64,000 nt of DNA from Lytechinus variegatus (taxonomy: Eukaryota; Echinodermata; Echinoidea; Temnopleuroida; Toxopneustidae), in the NCBI RefSeq assembly GCF_018143015.1, contig NC_054758.1:248001-312000 (forward strand), given 5' to 3'. A program made the position numbers and the translations under genes. The notes beneath the pieces are model-generated. The model was not told the DNA's origin and ran no database searches. It worked only from the letters and a program-made list of their open reading frames with translations. Positions 1,172 to 32,083 of the stretch are shown here, piece by piece (within the stretch, counting starts at the first letter, position 1; every line of letters begins with the position of its first letter).

Positions 1172-2700
1172 AATACAAATTTGAAAATCTGTAAATTAAT
1201 TTCTTCAGTTAGACATCTACTTGCAAATTTGTATCTATTTACTTTTAATTACAATCATTTAACGTTACATCAGTTCAGTAATTTCAATTAATACAATTGG
1301 ATCTAAGTTACAACTTAAACCCAAGTTAACCCTGACCTCTTTAACATTAGACCTAACTTAGTTAGATCTAACGTTAGAGTCTAACGATCTAGAATTATAT
1401 CTAAATCATGTTTACACTATTTGGCCTAGGGCCTATTGAGTCAAAGGACAAGAGAATGGAAAACTTTTCTAAAGTACTAACATTGACTTTCAAGTGTCTC
1501 ACTCAGTTTATGCACGAAGTACAGATCTACTGTAGATTAAGATTGTTTTTTATTCCCCCCGGCCCTGCTGGTTGTACATGGTCTCATGGGCCTAATCACT
1601 AGTGGCAGGCCCTAGATATTCATTCGAGCCAACCCGTTGCTATTTTTTTTTATTTTGATATGGCTGATTGACAAAGTGTATGCATATGATTGTCCATCTA
1701 ACACTGATTCTATTTTTGGTAATTACTGAACTTCCTTTTCCCAAATTGGGAAGAAATATCACCAATTTTGGACTATATTTTGACTGGCGGAAGGATTAGG
1801 GCTATTTTGCTGTTTGAGGTGATGAATCTGCTCCCCCGACGATGTCTTCAAACACGCCAATTTATTTTTAAAATGAGCTGGTCGAGGGACCCTTTTCTGG
1901 TCAGATATGGATTGCCAGATACAAATCCTATCCACTGGTAGTAAACATTCGACCCCCGAATTTCATCCTTATTTTTTATGAATTTTTTAAAGTGCCAATT
2001 TAACACATAAGTCTATGGGGAATGAATTAGGCCTGTGAGACATGTTTCTGTGACGTAAATTTATAAATCGGAACAAGTGATGGCGCCAATTAAGTGTTGA
2101 CTGGTGTTGACCACTGATCTCTATAAAAAATCTCAGTGGTGTTGACACACAGAGATACGATCCATGCATACATGCCTTCCAAAGGAAGGCATACTGTGTG
2201 TACAGTGTTGAGACCTAGAGCATTATGGAGTACGTGTACGAGTTTGAGTTTAAATATTGGACAACTCACCCGGTAGACAACTCAGTCACCCCGAGACCGC
2301 TCATCCGGCCTCGGTTCAGCAAGGGCGAGTTGTCTCACATTTTGTAGGGTCGGGGAAAATTGTTTCACCAGAAAAGTCCAAATTATGCTAAATTTTGTCA
2401 AATTATGCCAAGCATAATGCCAGATGCTGAAGCGGTCCAAATTATGCCAAAAAGCATAATTATGCCAACTCTGGCAACTATGTGACACTTCGCACAGATA
2501 TCGTAGGGAATTGTGGGACGGAAAAAAATGTTTAATGCATGACGACATGAATAAAACATTAGCGTTTTATCCAATCATACAAGTGCATTATGCGTATTTT
2601 GACGTCATTACTCATGAATTAAACATTGACCTTCCAAAATCAACCTTCAAATTGGACAAATGGCAGCCATGTTTGTTATGTACAAAACCTATGGAAAATC
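1172..2700. other. No gene seen
   Basis: Mixed AT-rich sequence. The part from about 2250 to 2520 is richer in CpG and has scattered short repeats (aaattatgcca), but no exon could be supported. Confidence 0.5.
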
Positions 2701-2988
2701 AAAAACGCGCGAAAAGAGTTGCCTCTCTAGCTCCCTTCGGGAGCTTACGTATACGTAAGATCGTATCTCTGTGATTTCAGGTGCAGGCGCGGCGGATCGG
2801 ATCGGTTGCTATGCAACTCCATCAGCTGGCTGTACCTGTGATCGTGACGTAACGATTATGCAATAACATTGATTGTGCGTGGTACATGGTGTGTGCTGCT
2901 TGGCCAGGTCGGCGGGGAAAATCAAAAATTTAAAAGTGAGAAGTTGAAACTTGGAGTTTTCACACCAAAAATTGTGTTTTATTAACCG
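2700..2988 (+). promoter_or_regulatory. Candidate promoter and non-coding first exon for ODF3-like copy 1
   Basis: The stretch is CpG-richer than its surroundings. In order it holds a small hairpin (CTCCCTTCGGGAG), a perfect 16-bp palindrome CTTACGTATACGTAAG at 2744-2759, an X-box-like site at 2805-2817, and a consensus splice donor ATTAACCG|GTAAGTTC with the exon end at 2988. The layout (X-box about 170-240 bp before a good donor) matches that upstream of ODF3-like copy 3. Copy 1 has an acceptor at 11560-11561 just before its ATG, so a leader exon must exist upstream. Linking this donor to that acceptor is inference; the intron would be 8.6 kb. Confidence 0.35.
2805..2817. promoter_or_regulatory. 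X-box-like site (RFX type)
   Basis: GTTGCTATGCAAC is a perfect inverted repeat of GTTGC with a 3-bp centre. It fits the RFX consensus RYYNYY-N-RRNRAC except at one position. RFX factors drive many ciliary genes, and the next gene on this strand is a ciliary/sperm-tail candidate. Confidence 0.4.
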
Positions 2989-5900
2989 GTAAGTTCATTG
3001 ATATATACTCCTAATTATCTTTCTTTTGTGAACTTTGGTGTGAAACTGTCATGACTGTGCCAAATATTGAAAAATTCATTGCTCGCGAGTGACGAGTGGA
3101 GAATGGAGTGAGTGTTGTGTCACTGAGATAGAGAATTGAGATGATTGTCTGTTGAATGATCTTGCTCGGCAATAAGAATAAGCACTAAATTCTTCTTTTT
3201 CTCCTTTTCTGCATACCGTCCTCCTGCTTTTGTTAAATTATGTTGTTGTGAATATGTGCATTGCATACTATTGGAATGTAGGATTTTAAATCCGATGTGG
3301 ACAGACAGCTGAGTGATGAGTTGGTCGACTTTGGAGCTAGTGCATTTTCGCACCCTCAAAGAATAGTGTTTCACCTTCAGGCTACAAAAAAAGGTACCGG
3401 TACTCCGGGGCGGGGGGTAGTACGGTATACTCGCGGTCGCTTCTGGTACGAGACCGAGCGGCTGCGGAGATGCAGGCACCTGATGCGAAAGAGCATCAGC
3501 GCCATTTTTTTTTCACTAGCCACTGTAGGCCTAAACGAACTTGAAAATGTCTGGTACTGTACTTTATACTGTAGGACCTATGCCGTATTGGTGAGCAAGA
3601 AATAGATCTAGCCTTTTTCATTTGGGCACCTGTCCACATGGTCCACAAGGATCCTACTACTAGTCCTAGACCTAGAAAACAAGGATATCCTCAAAAATTA
3701 GATAAATCATGTCCTGATGAATTGATATTTTCCTTGTTTATAAGAACATATTTTTTACCTCATCCTACAGGTCTTGGACACAATTCATGATATTCTCCCA
3801 ACAAAATTTGAACTCTGATTTTTAATTTTCTTTAGAGATTTTTTTTATTTTTTCAATATATATTTTGTAATGTGAAATCCTTTTCCCCAAAGTAATTCTC
3901 ATGCTGTTTTTTTTTTAAGTACTTCTTTTTGAAGTCAAATGATAAAGGATATCATGCAGACTCACCTCGAAAAATCACTTTCGTTTTCTTTTGTATGCAA
4001 GAGCATGTATTGGAAACTGACAGGGGCCGTCTCGAACTTCGGCAAGGACTACATGTAGCCACCCTTGGCTACTTTTTAGATATTTTTCAGAGCGAAATAC
4101 CATGCTTGCGGACAGCAATTCTGCCTTTTGTATGTGATCAAAATATGTTCTGTGTCATTAATTCAATATTTTTTTTTGTTAGTCTATGTCAGATATATTT
4201 TCTCAGGCAACGGCTGTTTATCAGACATATAAGACTTTGAATAACTGCACTTGATAAATGATGAGGCAAGTTAACCTCTCTTTTAAGACATAATGTCTTA
4301 CTCAAACCCACCGAATCTTGGTCAACAAAAAAGAAAACAAAATGCAAGACCAGAATACATGTATAAGTTTCGACTCTCTACATACCACTGAGTTGTGCAT
4401 ATAATGTGGAAAATAAGCGAAATTTTAATAGTCATAACTTTCTTTTTATCAGATTTCAATGAAATTTTCAGTGTTATGCCTGTTTGATTTTTCTCCATTG
4501 ATTCAAATCAGTATTTTTCTGAGGTGGACTTGACCTTTATGTAGGCCTACATGTAGGGCTCTACCCCCCCCCCCATTGTCATTGCTTTTCTGACTAATCA
4601 ATATTAATATACGTACATAATCGTCACCAAATGGTTTGATGTCACATAGGCTTTCCCTTGCCTATGACGTCGTACTTTAATTAGAAGTGACTGGCATGTG
4701 TAATCTTGAGAAATACAAGAGCGCCCTCATATTCAACTACTAGTGATGGATATCTTTTGTTTTGTATTTTTTAAAATGTATTTCAGTACAACTTACTTTT
4801 TATATTGCATGAAAGGCATATTTTCCAGGGACACTTGACCTTATTTTAGTTTTAAGGCCCTTTTCATTTTCAAGGAGATTATGTAAAATCATGTTTTTTT
4901 TTAATTGAAAGGCATTGTAACTTCTTTAAAATATATTTTACTATTTTGAATGTACATTCTATTCATATTTCAATTGATTACCTTTCTCATATGAATATAC
5001 ATTGTATATAATAAAGTGATGAAAAAACAGAAAGGGTTCTTTTCAGTTTAATCTTGTGTAATTGTCTAACAGTAACACATAATTTTGTTAAATAAATTTT
5101 ATACTTTTTGCAAACAATTTCAGTATAAAGACATACAGTATTGTTGAGGATATGGTCATTTTCAATGTCAAATTGGGAAAGTCCAGTTGACAAAAAGGTG
5201 TGCAAGTATTTTCAAGTCTACTCTTGAGCCTAGTTTGTGGAATGTTAATATTTCACATTACAATAGCCTGTAGACTACCAAGTTTTGACTTTTCTTGATT
5301 CCATTAAATTTGTTGTTTATTTGTTAATTTTGAGATCAGTGCTGTTTCTCTTTCTCTGTTGTTTTTGTTGTGTGGAGTTTAGGATCAAGTGAACAGTTTA
5401 AAGATCTGGATGACTGAATAAATATGGAAGTAAAAATCAACACAAGTTTGACGGATTACATGTTTTCTTTTGTTGACTTTGTTTAAACTTGAGATGAGAA
5501 TGAAATGCATTTGTAGCTAAAGTATCTGATCATAAAATATTGTTGATTCTGTTCTCGCAGACCTCTGTCGTAATATGTTGCTGGGCAACTGTTCATTGCT
5601 GTCAAATAAAACACTTTATCACTTTTAGCAGAAGGTGTAACAGGAAAGTGATGTATTGATTCCACCTGCAATTGCATATAGCTTTTATTTTTGAAATAAA
5701 ATATCAAAGCAATGATCAATATGCGCATTGTATGCACACCGTTTAAAAAAATTATGTTTTAAAGAGGCTGTGCATGTCCTATTCAATACCATATGGAGAT
5801 TTATAGTATGAATTACACATGCTGCAAACAGGGCGCTTATTACTCTACCTTTATCATTGGTTGCTAGCCGGGCAATAGAATTTTCTAGACCTGTAGCCAA

Positions 5901-11170: not shown

Positions 11171-11589
11171 GTCTACCTGCCTGCATTTAAATTTGCTATA
11201 TCTTTTACCTCACATGGATGTGACTTTCCTGATATTTTCTTCATCTTGACTCTTGAGCTTGTCCTGCTTTACTTCCCTGTTTCATATCTCCATTATTTCT
11301 TTTGCATTCATGATCGGAGTCATATCTTCTCTGAAATTCTTGGTGTTTTCTGCTGCCTTGATTCAAGATTTTCCTTTGATCTTTCCTATCACTCCAATGT
11401 TAGAGCCATCTGTACTGTCACCTCTTGGTGCATCATATTTTTGCAAGCAAACTCCTATAGAGGCATTCTTCTTATTTCACTCTTATGGATTAAATCGGAT
11501 GACAATGCCTTCTCATTGTTACAAGAAGATCGCAGTTCAACTTCCAAGTGTTCTCTTGCAGGTGTAAGGTGAAACTACTGTAGTAAGCA

Positions 11590-14500
11590 ATGTATACTCC
11601 TACTAAACCCCGTGGTCCTATCGCAGCATCCTTCACTGGTCCAGGACCCAGTTACAAACTTCCCGATCTTGTCGGAGGGAAGACCGCCATCACCAAGAGA
11701 CAGATGCCAAGTCATATTTTCGGTATAAAACACAGATCATTCACCACCGACTCCAGTCCAGGACCATGCCACAATTACCCTTCTAAAGTTACCAGGAGAG
11801 GAAACGATGGCACTCCACACTATTCCCTGTACGACCGTCCTAGGGACATATCTACATTCAAGACACCAGGGCCAGGAGCGTATTCACCTGAAAATGCTGG
11901 ACCTACCGCGTACCCTCGTGCTCCTCAGTCTACGTTTGGTTCCAGAACAAAAGGATCTAAGGTCGACCAGTCACCAGGTACGGTCAATCACATTTTGCTT
12001 AAAAAAAATCAATTTCAAAATAGTCTTTGGGTAGACAAAAAATTGATAGCAGCATGTGTCCATATTACAGTGTTTTGAAAACATGAAATACATGTTGATT
12101 GGCATGATACAACATGAACTTTAAAGATGTCACATTTCCTATTAATGTGCTTTAATATTATAAAGTTCTGTGTTTTGATTGTACATAATCAATCATACTT
12201 GTAATCCTATATTGATTGTTCATATACTGAACTGCAAAGCGTGTTGACATTTTAGGTTTTATTAATTTATATTTTCTATGTTCTTAATTTACAGCACCCA
12301 ATAGCTACATGCCAGCCGCAGTCAATTTTAAAGACTCGATTACAAAGCCCTCAGCACCTAGGTATTCATTTAGGGACCGCCCTAAGGTTGGAAGCTTTGC
12401 TGAAGATATGGCGAAGACCCCAGGACCTGGATCACATAGTACTGTAAACCCATCCATCTACAAGCATGCACCCCCTAGCTATTCAATGATTGGAAGAAAC
12501 CAAATGCCAAGTGATAATACACGTAAACCAGGCCCTGGAGCACACAGTCCAGAGAAGGTATATATATGACCCTGTTCTCATCTATTTCCTTAAACTTGTT
12601 AATTGGAAACCAGTTTTGAAAGTACAAACCAGTTTAACGTGTAATGGGAACACTTTAAAGCGGTCTTGGAAGCGATCTTAAATGGTCTCCCAAACTCCAA
12701 ACTAGTATGGAACACCAAACTGAAGTGGTCCTCTAAACCAATTTGGAAGACCATCTTGCAATGTGGTTTTCAAGACCACTTTGCTTCATTAAACTGGTTT
12801 AAGTGTAGTGAAGACACAATTGTTTTTGGGGATGTGATCTTAGCACAGAAGTACCAGACCTTGTTGGGCACACTACACACTGGGTGTGAAATGCCAATGC
12901 TGCAGTTTAAAATTTTGCACATAACATATGACCCTATTGAGAACATTTCCATAGCAACTAGACCATTTTACTTGATCTGGTTCTGGAATCCAGGGGCCCG
13001 TTTCATAAAGTACTTGCAACTGTATGTTGTAACTTTGCCATAATGGCAACTACATGTACCATGGTAACAGGGCTCAGCAGCCAATCAGAATCAAGGTTTC
13101 CATGGTAGTTGCCATAATGGCAAAATTACAATAGTTGCAAGTCCTTTATGAAATGATGATGAGAATACTAGCAAAGTGATCTTTATAAAACTGGTTTCCT
13201 GAACTGGATTAGGGATCAATTAAAGACACTGTGGATGAGAACAAACTCTGTGACAATATGGCACTTGTAAACCAAATGACACACATTATGAACAATATAT
13301 GCCATCTAATTCTGTGCTTAAATTATGGGAGGGCAGAAAAGAATCCAAAGAGTAGGGATCCTATTAAAGAAAAAATAATTTCTGTTTGGTACAAACTACT
13401 TCTCAGTCATGGGATTGACTGAAAATAATCATTGAAAATCATATGAAACGGTCAAATTATTGAACCTTTACCAAAGCTTTAGACAATCTAACTCAAGAAA
13501 CTCTGCTCCTTTCGTGGTATAGTTGACCCATTGAGCATGTTGAAGACTAGAAGGTGTATAAACCGTCTCTAATTTTCACTTTTAATAAACAAGAGTTTGC
13601 ACTTATCTTCCACCATAATATCTTTTTAAAAACATGATCCATCAATTGTGATTCCAAGTTCTTTTATAAGAAAAAAGAAGAAAATTCAGCATCCAGTCTG
13701 TTAAACAGTATGCAATTTGCATTGTGCTGGATGCTCCAATTTATATTCGTACAATTTACTGAAATATACATTCAAGGTAAATGCTAGTTTTGGTAACGAT
13801 ATCAAAATGAGTTCGTACAGAATCCAATTAAATGGCCACCAAAGTGTCTGTTTGTATAAATAAAACGTATGTGCCAAAGGATTCTGGAAGAAATTGTGTA
13901 ATTGCTGAGAAATCAGCAAATAAGAACAGGATTCGGGTAGAGCGTCGGGCCCGACGCTCTAAGCAATAATTATACATTGTCACACGTGCGCTTATCTGTG
14001 TTTGGGATCTTCGGTGTGAAGATTTTTCAGCGTAGATTTCAAGATTTCACAAAGTTCAGTTTATGCAACTGTACCTGATCTAGATCCTCAATGATATACA
14101 TGTACATGTAGGGGAAGGCGGGGTAAGTTGTGACAGTTTTTGCTTTTTGCATGTTAAAATTGATATGATTAATAATCTTGTCGAAATAAGTACCTTGCCT
14201 TGAAATTTAATTCTTTTGAAATATTTTTTACCTATATATAACTTTCTATCCCCACACTGAAAGTCATCGTGACCTTTGAAAAAAACGATGTCAAATGGCT
14301 CAACTTGCCCCATATATGGGGTAAGTTTGAGCCACCTTCTGGGGTAAGTTGAGCCACAAAAACTATATGTACAAAATGTATGGGGGAGAACCAGCATGTC
14401 AATTTTTTGTTTAAAGTCTTTTCACTTGCTAATTCTCTATAAATACTAATATCCTTTAAAAGGAAAAGAGCAGTCATGTAAATTTGCTCCTTTCAGCCAG

Positions 14501-27255: not shown

Positions 27256-27900
27256 ACTCATTAAAGAATCAGGTAATCATGTACGAAAATTGATGTTTAC
27301 TGTAACTTGCCAAAAGAGAAGTAAAAAAATATATATTCATTAATCAAGAAATTGTTGCAATATACACAATCTTGCCATGAAATTTGAAATGCATGAATAT
27401 GGATGCCACAAGTAATATATCTTGCCTTGAAATTAAAAGAAAGTACAAACATTGTAGATAATATAGTGTGCTTGTATTTGTGCTGTCTAATTTGTAGTCC
27501 ATTAAAATCTAACTTGCCCATTAAATTTTTCATTCACTAGTGGCAAACATAATGGTCGATGTAAACATTCATTGATGCAAAAAAGTAACACAATATGATT
27601 ATCAAAACAATGATTGCATACAAATTTCGGCAATGAAATCTTTGACATTTTTCATTTGATAATTGTAGAACTGTTAATTTGACATTTGATTTTCGTTTAC
27701 CTTTTATAGATTAATTATTTACAGTTCAGTTAAACATTTATTTTCCAACAGACTTTATATTCTTTGAAAGAATATAAAAGCATCAAGAATGTAAACAAAG
27801 CTGAACTAAATACCAAACCTGGGACTGTAACTAATTTATAAATAAAACCCAAATGAAAAGCAACAGCCCTAATCTATGTAATACAGGATAATATACTGCA

Positions 27901-28136
27901 CTGTAAAAACTGTGGTGTTAAAACTGACACCAATTGGTGTTAATAGAGGACCACACCCTGAGGTGTTAAAATTACACCCTAGAGATTGAACATAACACCA
28001 AAGAATGTAAATGTAACAACCAAAGGTGTTTTAATAACACATATAGGTGTAAAACTAACACCACCAATTTAACACCAGTGTAAAAGACTGGTGTGGTCCT
28101 CTATGTACACCAGTTAACACCACAGTTTTTGCTGTA
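27901..28136. mobile_element. TIR element 'AAAACTGTGGTGTTAA', copy 1
   Basis: Ends actgtaaaaactgtggtgtt and aacaccacagtttttgctgt are inverted repeats, with inner repeated 'ggtgtta' and 'taacacc'. The same family in the other orientation lies at 49268-49492; they share 'gaggaccacaccctgaggtg' and 'ccctagagattgaacataac'. Confidence 0.85.
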
Positions 28137-28225
28137 TAATGATAAGTGGATAGCATAAAAAAAACAACCAATAGGTGAGAAAGACTGGGGGAGAGAAGGG
28201 TTGAGAGGTGGGGGAGAAGAGAAAT

Positions 28226-29510: not shown

Positions 29511-29705
29511 GGTTCTGATTGTGTCTTTCTTTGGTTTATTATTACCCCTTGAGGGGTGGGCCGATCCCGGAGGTACTGCAATACCGGGCCAACCCGTGGC
29601 CAGGACGGAGCAAGCCCCTATTCCATGGCCTAAGTTCAAAAATCAGTTTAATATACAAGCGACTCGGTGAGTCGCGTTTCAGATATTAAGCTGAAAAGAA
29701 CAGAT
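29511..29705 (-). pseudogene. 5'-deleted U2 snRNA copy (second arm of a 195-bp duplication)
   Basis: Contains U2 nucleotides 38 to 188 and 44 bp of 3' flank. By eye it is identical over all 195 bp to 30986-31180. The first 37 nt of U2 are absent and the sequence begins exactly at ATCTGTTCTTTTCAGC. With no U2 promoter it should not be made as U2. It is the downstream target-site duplication of the retrotransposon at 29706-30985. Confidence 0.93.
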
Positions 29706-30985
29706 TTATTAGCATAGAAAAAACTCAGAAATAACAGTTTTACAAATCATATATGTTGATCCAACGGTATAAAGGTTACCGAAGGATGTAAAATTAATTG
29801 GGGTGACATCGAGATATTATGTAGGACATTGCTTTGACAAAGCATTATGATGTGACAAGAAATTAATGTGTAAGGGGATTTTATCTTATTTCATCATGCC
29901 AGTTGGTTAGCAGACTTTACGTAGATTGTCAGGAACAGAAAAAAAAATGTTTAGATATAATAATGAGTATGTTGTTTGGAACACAATATAAATGCTATTC
30001 AATACTGCCGGTGACCGGTAACGTGTTCGATATAGATATCCCGGCTGCCTTTGATCGCATCTATGCAGCACAGACGCCTCATCAGTGTTCTGTATCGGCG
30101 AGAGATACCTAGACGTCCCAGAACACGCTCGTTGTCCCCGTGCCACGACCCAAGGGAGCCGATTACAAAAGCGTGGACCTCGACATCCATACCACGGCTG
30201 GCCAGCTCTTGTCGCAGTGTGTCATATTTCATGACTTTGGCGTTGGCAGCCGTGGAGAGGGCATCCGGACCATTGTCGAATGGGATGGTGATGTCGACAA
30301 TGGTCACCTTGTTACCCTCAACCACTGTGATGTCGGGTCGCTCCCTTGGGTTCGGGTCGCCGGGGACATGCTGGTCCTGGTAGATGTCACCGTAGTGAAT
30401 CGCCTTCACCAGGCGTTCTTGGATGGAGTTGTGCCTCCGGCGGATCGGTACCATGTTGGGACGGCAGTTGTTAATAATGTGGGGCAACGTCTCCAACTGG
30501 TGATCACACCTTCGGCACTTGGTGTTGGCGTTCTGTTTCCACCGCCGGACAGCAGCGTTGGTAGGTAGACAGTTTAGGCGAGCACGGTGGATGAACCTCC
30601 AGTCGCAAAATCGGATGAAACTCCCGGATGTCAGCCATGATGTTGCGTTGGCGAAACTATCCAAGGAGAGTGCCCTGGCTACCTTGCCCTGGTCTGGAAG
30701 GGACCGCAGCTTCTCTGACATCTCGTTGTGATGGTCGGAGCGGAGACCTGCAGTCACTTTCTTGGAGGGGATGGCACGGCCTCCACTCTCGACCTTGATG
30801 TCGCCGCTCGAGGCTCCGACGATCCTTATCTTCAGGCGACGGGATGCAGCCCTTGTACGTGACCAAAGAGATGATGCCTGGCCACTGTTCCCTGAGTTTG
30901 CCAGAGGGCCCTCACTGCTTCCGGACAAGAACTTGTCGATGCAGTCATCTGATGGTGCAGAATGGACCGTCCTGTGGACCACTGA
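29706..30985 (-). mobile_element. 5'-truncated RLE-type non-LTR retrotransposon inserted in U2 snRNA gene
   Basis: A LINE-type element on the same strand as U2. Its open frame covers 30985 to 29999 (stop 29999-30001), about 328 residues, with a 3'UTR of about 290 bp ending ...gctaataa without a long poly-A. The protein has a C-X2-C-X8-H-X4-C zinc knuckle (CRRC...HIINNC) followed about 42 residues later by the restriction-like endonuclease core R-PD-X12-D (RPDITVV...VTIVDITIPFD) and a KY motif (AKVMKY). This order is that of R2/NeSL/Utopia-type elements. The reverse transcriptase is missing: the copy starts in the linker before the knuckle. U2-specific RLE elements are known as Utopia; membership is likely but not proven. 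The frame is open throughout and continues by chance into U2-derived codons at its 5' side. Confidence 0.93.
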
Positions 30986-30998
30986 GGTTCTGATTGTG

Positions 30999-31007
30999 TC
31001 TTTCTTT
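30999..31007 (-). terminator. snRNA 3' box candidate
   Basis: AAAGAAAGA on the minus strand fits the core AAARNNAGA of the metazoan snRNA 3' box. It lies about 23 nt beyond the U2 3' end, a little further than in vertebrates. It falls inside the duplicated 195 bp, so the complete U2 upstream of the insertion keeps it. Confidence 0.6.
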
Positions 31008-31029
31008 GGTTTATTATTACCCCTTGAGG

Positions 31030-31217
31030 GGTGGGCCGATCCCGGAGGTACTGCAATACCGGGCCAACCCGTGGCCAGGACGGAGCAAGCCCCTATTCCA
31101 TGGCCTAAGTTCAAAAATCAGTTTAATATACAAGCGACTCGGTGAGTCGCGTTTCAGATATTAAGCTGAAAAGAACAGATACTACACATGATCTTAGCCA
31201 AAAGGCCGAGAAGCGAT
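31030..31217 (-). ncRNA. RNU2: U2 spliceosomal snRNA, complete
   Basis: The 5' end ATCGCTTCTCGGCCTTTTGG is the invariant U2 start. It is followed by the branch-point recognition GTAGTA in TGTGTAGTATCTG, stem-loop IIa, the Sm site ATTTTTGA, stem-loop III (GGGGCTTGCTCCGTCC) and stem-loop IV with TATTGCAGTACCTCC. Length is about 188 nt, as in other animals; the exact 3' end may differ by 2 nt. U2 base-pairs with the intron branch site in the spliceosome. No damaging change is seen, so the gene looks functional despite a retrotransposon just downstream. Confidence 0.97.
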
Positions 31218-31856
31218 ACCGAATAATAGATTTTGCAATACTTATTCAATTAAACTGCATGACGTTTGATGGTTAGAGAAATATTGCAGGCATCAAAAAA
31301 CCTAGAGAAAATAAGGAAAGTTTCTTGAAATCTAATAGATATCTGCAAATGAAGTACATATATTATATTGTCTTTATATTAATCTATCTAGTAAGATGTA
31401 TCACAACTTATTTAAACCATTCAATTTGACTAATATTCAATTTTTCACACGGAAACCTTAGGATCTGGCTGTTCAAGGAAGACGAAAAGCACTAGTCATA
31501 TGAATATTCATTAAGTATGCTTTGATACCACTTAATACGCCAGGCAATCGAACCATTGACAATAGCAGGCGTGGGTGGAATTTCTATACGTCTGCCTGTG
31601 ACGTCATAATTTTTATTGTAATTGGATCACGCCGAGCAGCGAGCGAGCGAAATACAAAGGTCATTAATAGTGTCGATACGAACGTGCGCAATGCAACGAG
31701 ATCGAAACGTTCTTAGATATAGCTTTTCCCCTCTTCCATTTATCATTCTTGTCCGTGCTATATATTTGCTGAATAAACCTCGATTTTGAGAATCATATTG
31801 ATTTTTATAGGAGCAGCGTAGGATATAAAAATATATATCCTGATTGTTTTAACATC
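31218..31856 (-). promoter_or_regulatory. Upstream region of the U2 gene
   Basis: About 60 bp before U2 should contain the proximal sequence element, but I cannot define it without a species consensus. A perfect CRE TGACGTCA lies at 31599-31606, about 380 bp upstream, beside a CpG-rich patch (31620-31710). Whether it acts on U2 is unknown. Confidence 0.4.
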
Positions 31857-32083
31857 GTAGACTTCAAAACTCCGGTGTTGATTCAACACCAGCCCGGAAT
31901 ATAATCAGTCCACATCTGAGAAGTATTGAATCAACACCAGTTTGGAATCAAACCGATGCTGTTTTGATACTAATTGGTGTTGTATTAACACGTTAGACCA
32001 AGACGAAACTGATGTCACTTCTCTGGTGTGGACATAGGGCCTATATTAGTTTTAAATCAACACCAGAGTTTTTGCAGTTTACT
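31857..32083. mobile_element. TIR element with TCAACACCAG repeats
   Basis: Left 'caaaactccggtgttgattc' and right 'aatcaacaccagagtttttg' form inverted ends. Internal 'tcaacaccag' and 'ctggtgt' units repeat. It resembles the 'CTGTGGTGTTAA' elements at 27901 and 49268 in design but not in sequence. Confidence 0.7.

Follow-up and report, generated by a model that had tools for sequence, protein, structure and literature searches.

The window analyzed here is a 64-kb stretch of the Lytechinus variegatus genome (C19:248001-312000; genome searches covered the 869.6-Mb assembly), in which a complete U2 snRNA gene on the minus strand is followed by a 5'-truncated non-LTR element and then by a second U2 sequence that begins at nucleotide 38 (Table 1). 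This order, as well as the wholeness of the upstream U2, had been proposed in an initial annotation of the sequence and is borne out by the Rfam matches. The complete gene scores 189.9 bits, a score shared by the U2 genes on C4 and C7 and by 22 listed C8 array units, and the second match (29734-29551, minus strand) scores 127.2 bits, with its first ~37 positions falling on non-U2 sequence. The motif upstream of the intact gene, TATTTCTCYAACSA, is also found 67 bp upstream of the C7 U2 gene, and this string is absent from the compared regions upstream of the C4 and C8 U2 genes.

Table 1. Features of the interrupted U2 locus, in the order of U2 transcription (positions in the 64-kb window)
Feature	Position	Strand	Evidence or remark
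Region upstream of intact U2, with TATTTCTCYAACSA motif starting 66 bp upstream	31218..31283	-	candidate PSE, by eye
Complete U2 snRNA gene, 188 nt	31030..31217	-	RF00004, 189.9 bits, model 1-192, Rfam span 31026-31217
Upstream arm: U2 nt 38-188 and 44 bp of 3' flank	30986..31180	-	195/195 match to 29511-29705
5'-truncated Utopia-like non-LTR element, 1,280 bp	29706..30985	-	sits exactly between the arms
Open C-terminal reading frame, 328 aa and stop	29999..30985	-	element begins inside its own frame
CCHC zinc finger, C157-X2-C160-X8-H169-X4-C174	30464..30517	-	four residues almost invariant across an alignment of 24 sequences
Restriction-like endonuclease core, P217-D218 ... D231-x3-P235-F236 ... 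K250-x2-K253-Y254	30224..30337	-	residue conservation, structure match
Element 3' UTR, ending ...TAATAA at the U2 junction	29706..29998	-	read from sequence; matched by the 3' end of the C7 copy
Downstream arm: U2 nt 38-188 (29555-29705) and 44 bp of flank (29511-29554)	29511..29705	-	lacks U2 nt 1-37 and U2 promoter

A repeat search recovered the two arms as a shared block of 195 nt with 100% identity, exactly as initially delineated (29511-29705 and 30986-31180), and a 195/195 match excludes a chance origin. The block comprises U2 nucleotides 38-188 (151 nt) and 44 nt of 3' flank, of which 31 bp (30999-31029) are alike in other U2 genes and the outer 13 bp (30986-30998) were found only at the C19 locus, given that the 38 other U2 matches in the genome cover only positions 14-195 of the query. 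The abrupt divergence at both borders, to which the initial annotation drew attention, is real but carries no diagnostic weight, since each border has the element itself on one side. The first cut had been placed between U2 nucleotides 37 and 38; the downstream copy does start at nucleotide 38, but a cut between 38 and 39 is equally possible because a single A at the 3' junction can be assigned to the element or to U2.

Elsewhere in the window, two AACACC/GGTGTT-rich stretches (27900-28140 and 31870-32075) lie in inverted orientation and look MITE-like by eye, and part of the former matches other loci. An outer dense fiber protein of L. variegatus matches the open stretch at 11587-12075, with 90% identity over 90% of the stretch.

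Identity and genomic copies of the element

The interrupting sequence had been described as an RLE-type LINE tail, correctly so, as its open frame contains a CCHC finger and an R2-type endonuclease. The Pfam zf-RVT model matches this frame with an E-value of 3.7e-5 but at 24.7 bits, under the cut-off of 27.5. In the endonuclease core, F236 and K253 are invariant among the 24 aligned sequences, and P217, D231, P235, K250 and Y254 are nearly so. A phmmer search against solved structures retrieved three R2 sequences (best E-value 6.3e-21). When the predicted structure of the frame (mean pLDDT 86, pTM 0.64) was used as a Foldseek query, all seven matches with E <= 0.001 were R2 structures (best E-value 3.5e-14), the weaker matches being mostly other nucleases; the structure alignment to R2Tg gave 27%. 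According to this model, the endonuclease region has the R2 fold, a feature shared with R2 itself, although the target is U2 rather than the 28S target of R2.

Protein searches identified 90 relatives with E <= 0.001 among 2380 candidates, including those from Asterias amurensis (62% identity across the whole query) and Diadema antillarum (69%, covering 60% of the query). BLASTP also matched turtle proteins, one from Pelodiscus (40%, whole query) and two from Chrysemys (41-43%, over 63% and 56% of the query). Both of these genera appear as hosts of Utopia, the U2-specific RLE LINEs of the NeSL clade, in Table 1 of Kojima & Jurka 2015 (PMC4640811), and so does L. variegatus. The element resembles Utopia, as characterized in the available part of that source, in its named host, in its C-terminal zinc finger and RLE domain (with the zf-RVT score below the Pfam cut-off), and in its 3' junction, given there as U2 nucleotide 38/39 for Phytophthora (PMC4640811). 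U2 from nucleotide 38/39 onward forms the 3' flank in two of the three copies scored at the DNA level (C19 and C7). These features support the assignment of the element to Utopia-type, U2-targeted RLE LINEs.

The DNA search of the genome yielded three copies (3 of 3 candidates scored), namely, those on C19, on C7 (79% identity) and at C8:5121207-5122232 (87%). At the protein level, with 122 of 146 candidates scored, the same three loci accounted for 5 of 31 rows, the other 26 rows being 25-35% identical. All three copies are 5'-truncated, none extends past the C-terminal part used as the query, and no full-length copy of the family was found by either search, with the same 122 of 146 protein candidates scored. 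Among viral contigs, 28 pattern matches were obtained, none of which was a relative. Changes found only in the C19 copy are far rarer at codon positions 1 and 2 (9/379) than at position 3 (29/190). Together with the identical arms and the open frame, this scarcity indicates that the copy is young and that its lineage has been under selection, in agreement with the initial suggestion of a recent event.

The C8 copy lies outside U2, adjoining only a short U2-like stretch, and its flanks share no recognizable repeat. Copies with short or no duplications had been named at the outset as evidence against the proposed process; such a case thus occurs in part, but outside U2. A ~1.07-kb insert whose ends match in inverted orientation (TCAGTCGGCAAGCCC...; L027:2240-3312) divides the C8 copy. 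This copy is also adjoined by an older 3' end of the same element (L027:3484-3654; 70% over 135 bp), which is followed by ~21 bp of U2-like sequence, a possible case of relaxed targeting.

A second U2 insertion and the age of its arms

The genome search for further junctions between the element and U2, as recommended in the initial annotation, produced one additional, older case, on C7 (L010), with U2 again resuming from nucleotide 38; only two U2-located copies were found, and their duplications differ in length (195 bp and ~360 bp). The layout on C7 matches that on C19: an intact U2 gene (1745-1936, 189.9 bits) and its flank, which runs to 2149, precede the element (~2158-3046), after which U2 resumes at nucleotide 38 (from 3047), again with its flank. 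The shared block, which is decayed, spans 1782-2149 and 3047-3402, that is, 368 and 356 bp. Between the two arms, U2 nucleotides 38-188 differ at 5 of 151 positions, the next 31 bp show no differences, and the remaining flank differs at 28 of 173 positions, with 14 additional gap columns. Because the U2 part is far more alike than the flank, gene conversion probably acted on the dead U2 fragment.

If the arms were made at insertion, half of their divergence should match the decay of the element since then. The flank divergence is 16.2%, or 8.1% per arm (95% range 5.6-11.1%). Among the three copies, element changes unique to C7 amount to 51/645 (7.9%) at codon positions 1 and 2 and in the UTR, with positions 1 and 2 contributing 27/379, and to 79/835 (9.5%) across all columns aligned in the three copies. 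The 7.9% figure was chosen for comparison because these sites should be least changed before insertion, with the proviso that the C7 branch still includes any pre-insertion change. The resulting difference between arm and element decay is 0.2% per arm (95% interval -3.2 to +3.7%). Thus, the divergence of the arms fits the decay of the element, which suggests that the arms were near-identical at insertion. The interval permits arms up to ~7% different at that time, and a freshly homogenized array, with units ~97% alike, would satisfy it as well, so the test speaks against an old tandem pair only.

U2 genes and arrays in the genome

Most U2 genes of L. variegatus belong to two arrays on C8 (C8:1807780-1829899 and C8:5057616-5081150), which consist of ~1.04-kb units, have opposite orientations and lie about 3.2 Mb apart. 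By our row count, one array contains 22 full units, and the other contains 22 full units and one truncated unit, 44 full units in all. Outside the arrays, full-length U2 was represented by four solitary genes among those scored, a pair on C4 and single genes on C7 and C19; the underlying listings covered 46 scored candidates out of 55,624, omitting known truncated copies and some array units, and, in another search, 40 of 56 candidates. The two C4 genes, both solitary and uninterrupted, form a duplicated pair (upstream flanks 94% alike). The C19 gene, which the initial annotation took for an essential RNA gene, is not obviously essential in the presence of 44 array units and three other solitary full-length genes. 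With U2 this plentiful, sparing one copy is not needed for life.

The Utopia-like element has no match within either C8 array. A Fisher test comparing the solitary loci hit (2/4) with array units (0/45) gives p = 0.005; we assign no weight to this result because the comparison was devised once the data were known, the two C4 genes are duplicates, and insertions may be purged from arrays.

The sequence around the two interrupted genes was searched for traces of additional units. No third U2 is present in the 64-kb C19 window or in the 20 kb around the C7 locus. No second copy of the 400 bp upstream of the intact U2 was found in 29.5 + 32 kb around C19 or in 6.6 + 11.3 kb around C7; the same search in the array, used as a control, does find a second copy. 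The 399 bp next to the C19 junction have no other match in the genome. When the entire 911-bp C19 downstream flank was compared with the genome, 24 other places matched, all within query positions 378-512; we therefore rejected these as paralogous empty sites and regard them as a dispersed repeat.

Apart from the Utopia-like element, another kind of U2-targeting element is present at one C8 array, whose outermost unit it truncates at nucleotide ~35 (L014:965-1150, with the element from 1151 to ~5150; C8:5080965-5085150). The sequence next to the 5' side of this element is that of a diverged array unit (unit 298-453 at L014:5204-5355); U2-downstream sequence is thus again found upstream of an element. 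Two more decayed U2 fragments (L014:6870-7306, on the strand opposite to the array, and L024:1964-2129) are each preceded by what appears to be the same 3' end. Judging by position and by reading of the sequence, these copies at the C8 array are apparently Keno-like. The Utopia-like element differs from Keno in its type of endonuclease (RLE as opposed to APE). Keno, an APE-type U2-specific element, has been reported with the same U2 3' flank as Utopia (PMC4640811).

Origin and significance of the duplication

At C19, a Utopia-type RLE LINE, truncated at its 5' end, recently inserted into a solitary U2 gene, and the duplication, in our judgment, probably arose at insertion, through either a distant second cut or repair. 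We prefer this reading to insertion into an array followed by deletion because no third U2 or second U2 promoter was found in the surrounding sequence searched and the 399 bp beside the C19 junction are unique; these observations hold for the surroundings of C7 as far as U2 and its promoter are concerned. An old tandem pair is a less likely source of the two arms than the insertion itself, because both arms carry locus-specific flank and the arm divergence at C7 equals the decay of the element. The initial interpretation is supported in part, including its reading of the locus as a duplication. The evidence comes from one genome and two U2-located copies.

As judged from the 3' junction, the endonuclease would nick U2 at the canonical site (nucleotides 37-39) and prime reverse transcription there; the 5' end of the cDNA would then be joined at a point beyond the 3' box, ~195 bp further downstream than the first nick, such that the whole block between the two breaks would be copied. 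The outcome at C19 is a complete U2 gene upstream of the element and a promoterless U2 fragment downstream. A fixed stagger of ~195 bp, as initially proposed, is rejected given that the C7 block is 356-368 bp long; the second break, although far from the first, would not be at a fixed distance, as the ~360-bp duplication by the same family indicates. A far-displaced second cut that generates duplications of variable length appears to be the most likely source. Nucleosome spacing was considered in connection with the 195 and ~360 bp lengths, and we make no claim to that effect. Insertions that preserve U2 at solitary genes may be those that survive, and such survival may shape the observed set.

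The duplication at insertion might alternatively have been completed by repair, with the cDNA end attached, by template switch or end joining, to sequence downstream of U2 on the sister chromatid or homologue, which could yield any length. This is a possible, if somewhat doubtful, route. The difference between 195 and ~360 bp and the 5' truncation of all three copies are compatible with it, and, from the codons that homologs lead one to expect, 2-3 nt of microhomology could be argued for at the 5' junction on C19; yet, the sequence outcome is identical to that of a staggered cut. With only two cases, a distant nick and sister-chromatid repair are inseparable.

A different scenario, which we consider unlikely, posits a pre-existing tandem U2 pair or small array, in which the element entered the second U2 at nucleotide 38 and deleted its first 37 nucleotides, promoter and part of the spacer, bringing the 5' end of the element next to the 3' flank of the intact first U2. 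U2 is indeed arrayed on C8 in this species, in ~1.04-kb units; intact U2 genes lie upstream of Utopia in Phytophthora arrays, for which a similar deletion reading was given in 2015 (PMC4640811); and deletion and duplication would produce borders that look alike. A 150-bp stretch at window 1646-1793 is 70% similar to the C8 array spacer (unit 563-709) and counts in favor of this scenario; it is 28 kb away, has no U2 beside it and is perhaps a dispersed repeat. Against this scenario, the same two-unit layout and a large deletion would be required independently at two loci, each of which retains a single intact U2, with neither another unit nor another promoter in the surrounding sequence searched. 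Moreover, the C7 arms show no clear divergence beyond that accrued since insertion, and the C4 loci are single genes.

An assembly artefact, with inserted and empty haplotypes stacked in tandem, would account for the identical C19 arms, but is highly improbable because the same layout on C7, with arms 16% diverged in the flank, is hardly expected of a haplotype stack. Even less credible is an import of the upstream U2 part with the element, by reverse transcription of a U2-element read-through transcript: co-transcripts with target-flanking sequence belong to a published model for the R2 group (PMC3636483), but both arms at C19 and C7 carry the 3' flank of their own locus, which is unlike the flanks of the other U2 genes compared, and the upstream U2 continues into locus-specific upstream sequence.

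The length of the duplication was compared with published cases. For Utopia, the accessible text reports no duplications in arthropods and 20 bp in reptiles (PMC4640811), unlike the 195 and ~360 bp at the solitary U2 genes described here. Among the target-site changes cited for other elements in PMC6895275, R2Bm deletes 2 bp, 9 bp is given for R8 and 13 bp for R4, 10-20 bp is the general range, and the 126 bp of R9 is the distant case. The element resembles R9 of bdelloid rotifers in being an RLE element with an unusually long duplication, but it targets U2, not rDNA, and in place of the single cited length of 126 bp (PMC6895275), the duplications are 195 bp on C19 and 356-368 bp on C7, with none found at the off-target C8 copy. 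The duplication is thus longer than any RLE duplication cited there. No long U2 duplication was reported in the literature searched, that is, titles and abstract openings, with most subscription papers outside the search. In Drosophila rDNA, type I insertions are R1, an APE-type element. As indicated by the title of Roiha & Glover 1981, duplicated rDNA targets of variable length flank short type I insertions in Drosophila. Therefore, variable duplications beside short copies, the feature shared with the present element, are not new as such.

An intact U2 upstream of Utopia is not new either, having been described in Phytophthora, where it was explained by loss of a U2 5' fragment, with a duplication that was later lost still considered possible (PMC4640811). 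What is new is that the second U2-located copy, on C7, repeats the layout with a different duplication length. The two loci provide a natural case for the poorly understood second half of LINE integration, with two breaks hundreds of bases apart. How Utopia persists in few U2 genes was left open in 2015 (PMC4640811), and restoration of the target by duplication would be one way to account for it. Speculatively, echinoderm Utopia might be a gene-sparing LINE that duplicates the rest of its target, including the 3' box, so that each insertion leaves a working U2; the same process may then explain both the intact Phytophthora U2 genes now read as deletions and the persistence of Utopia, a strictly site-specific element, in a low-copy essential gene.
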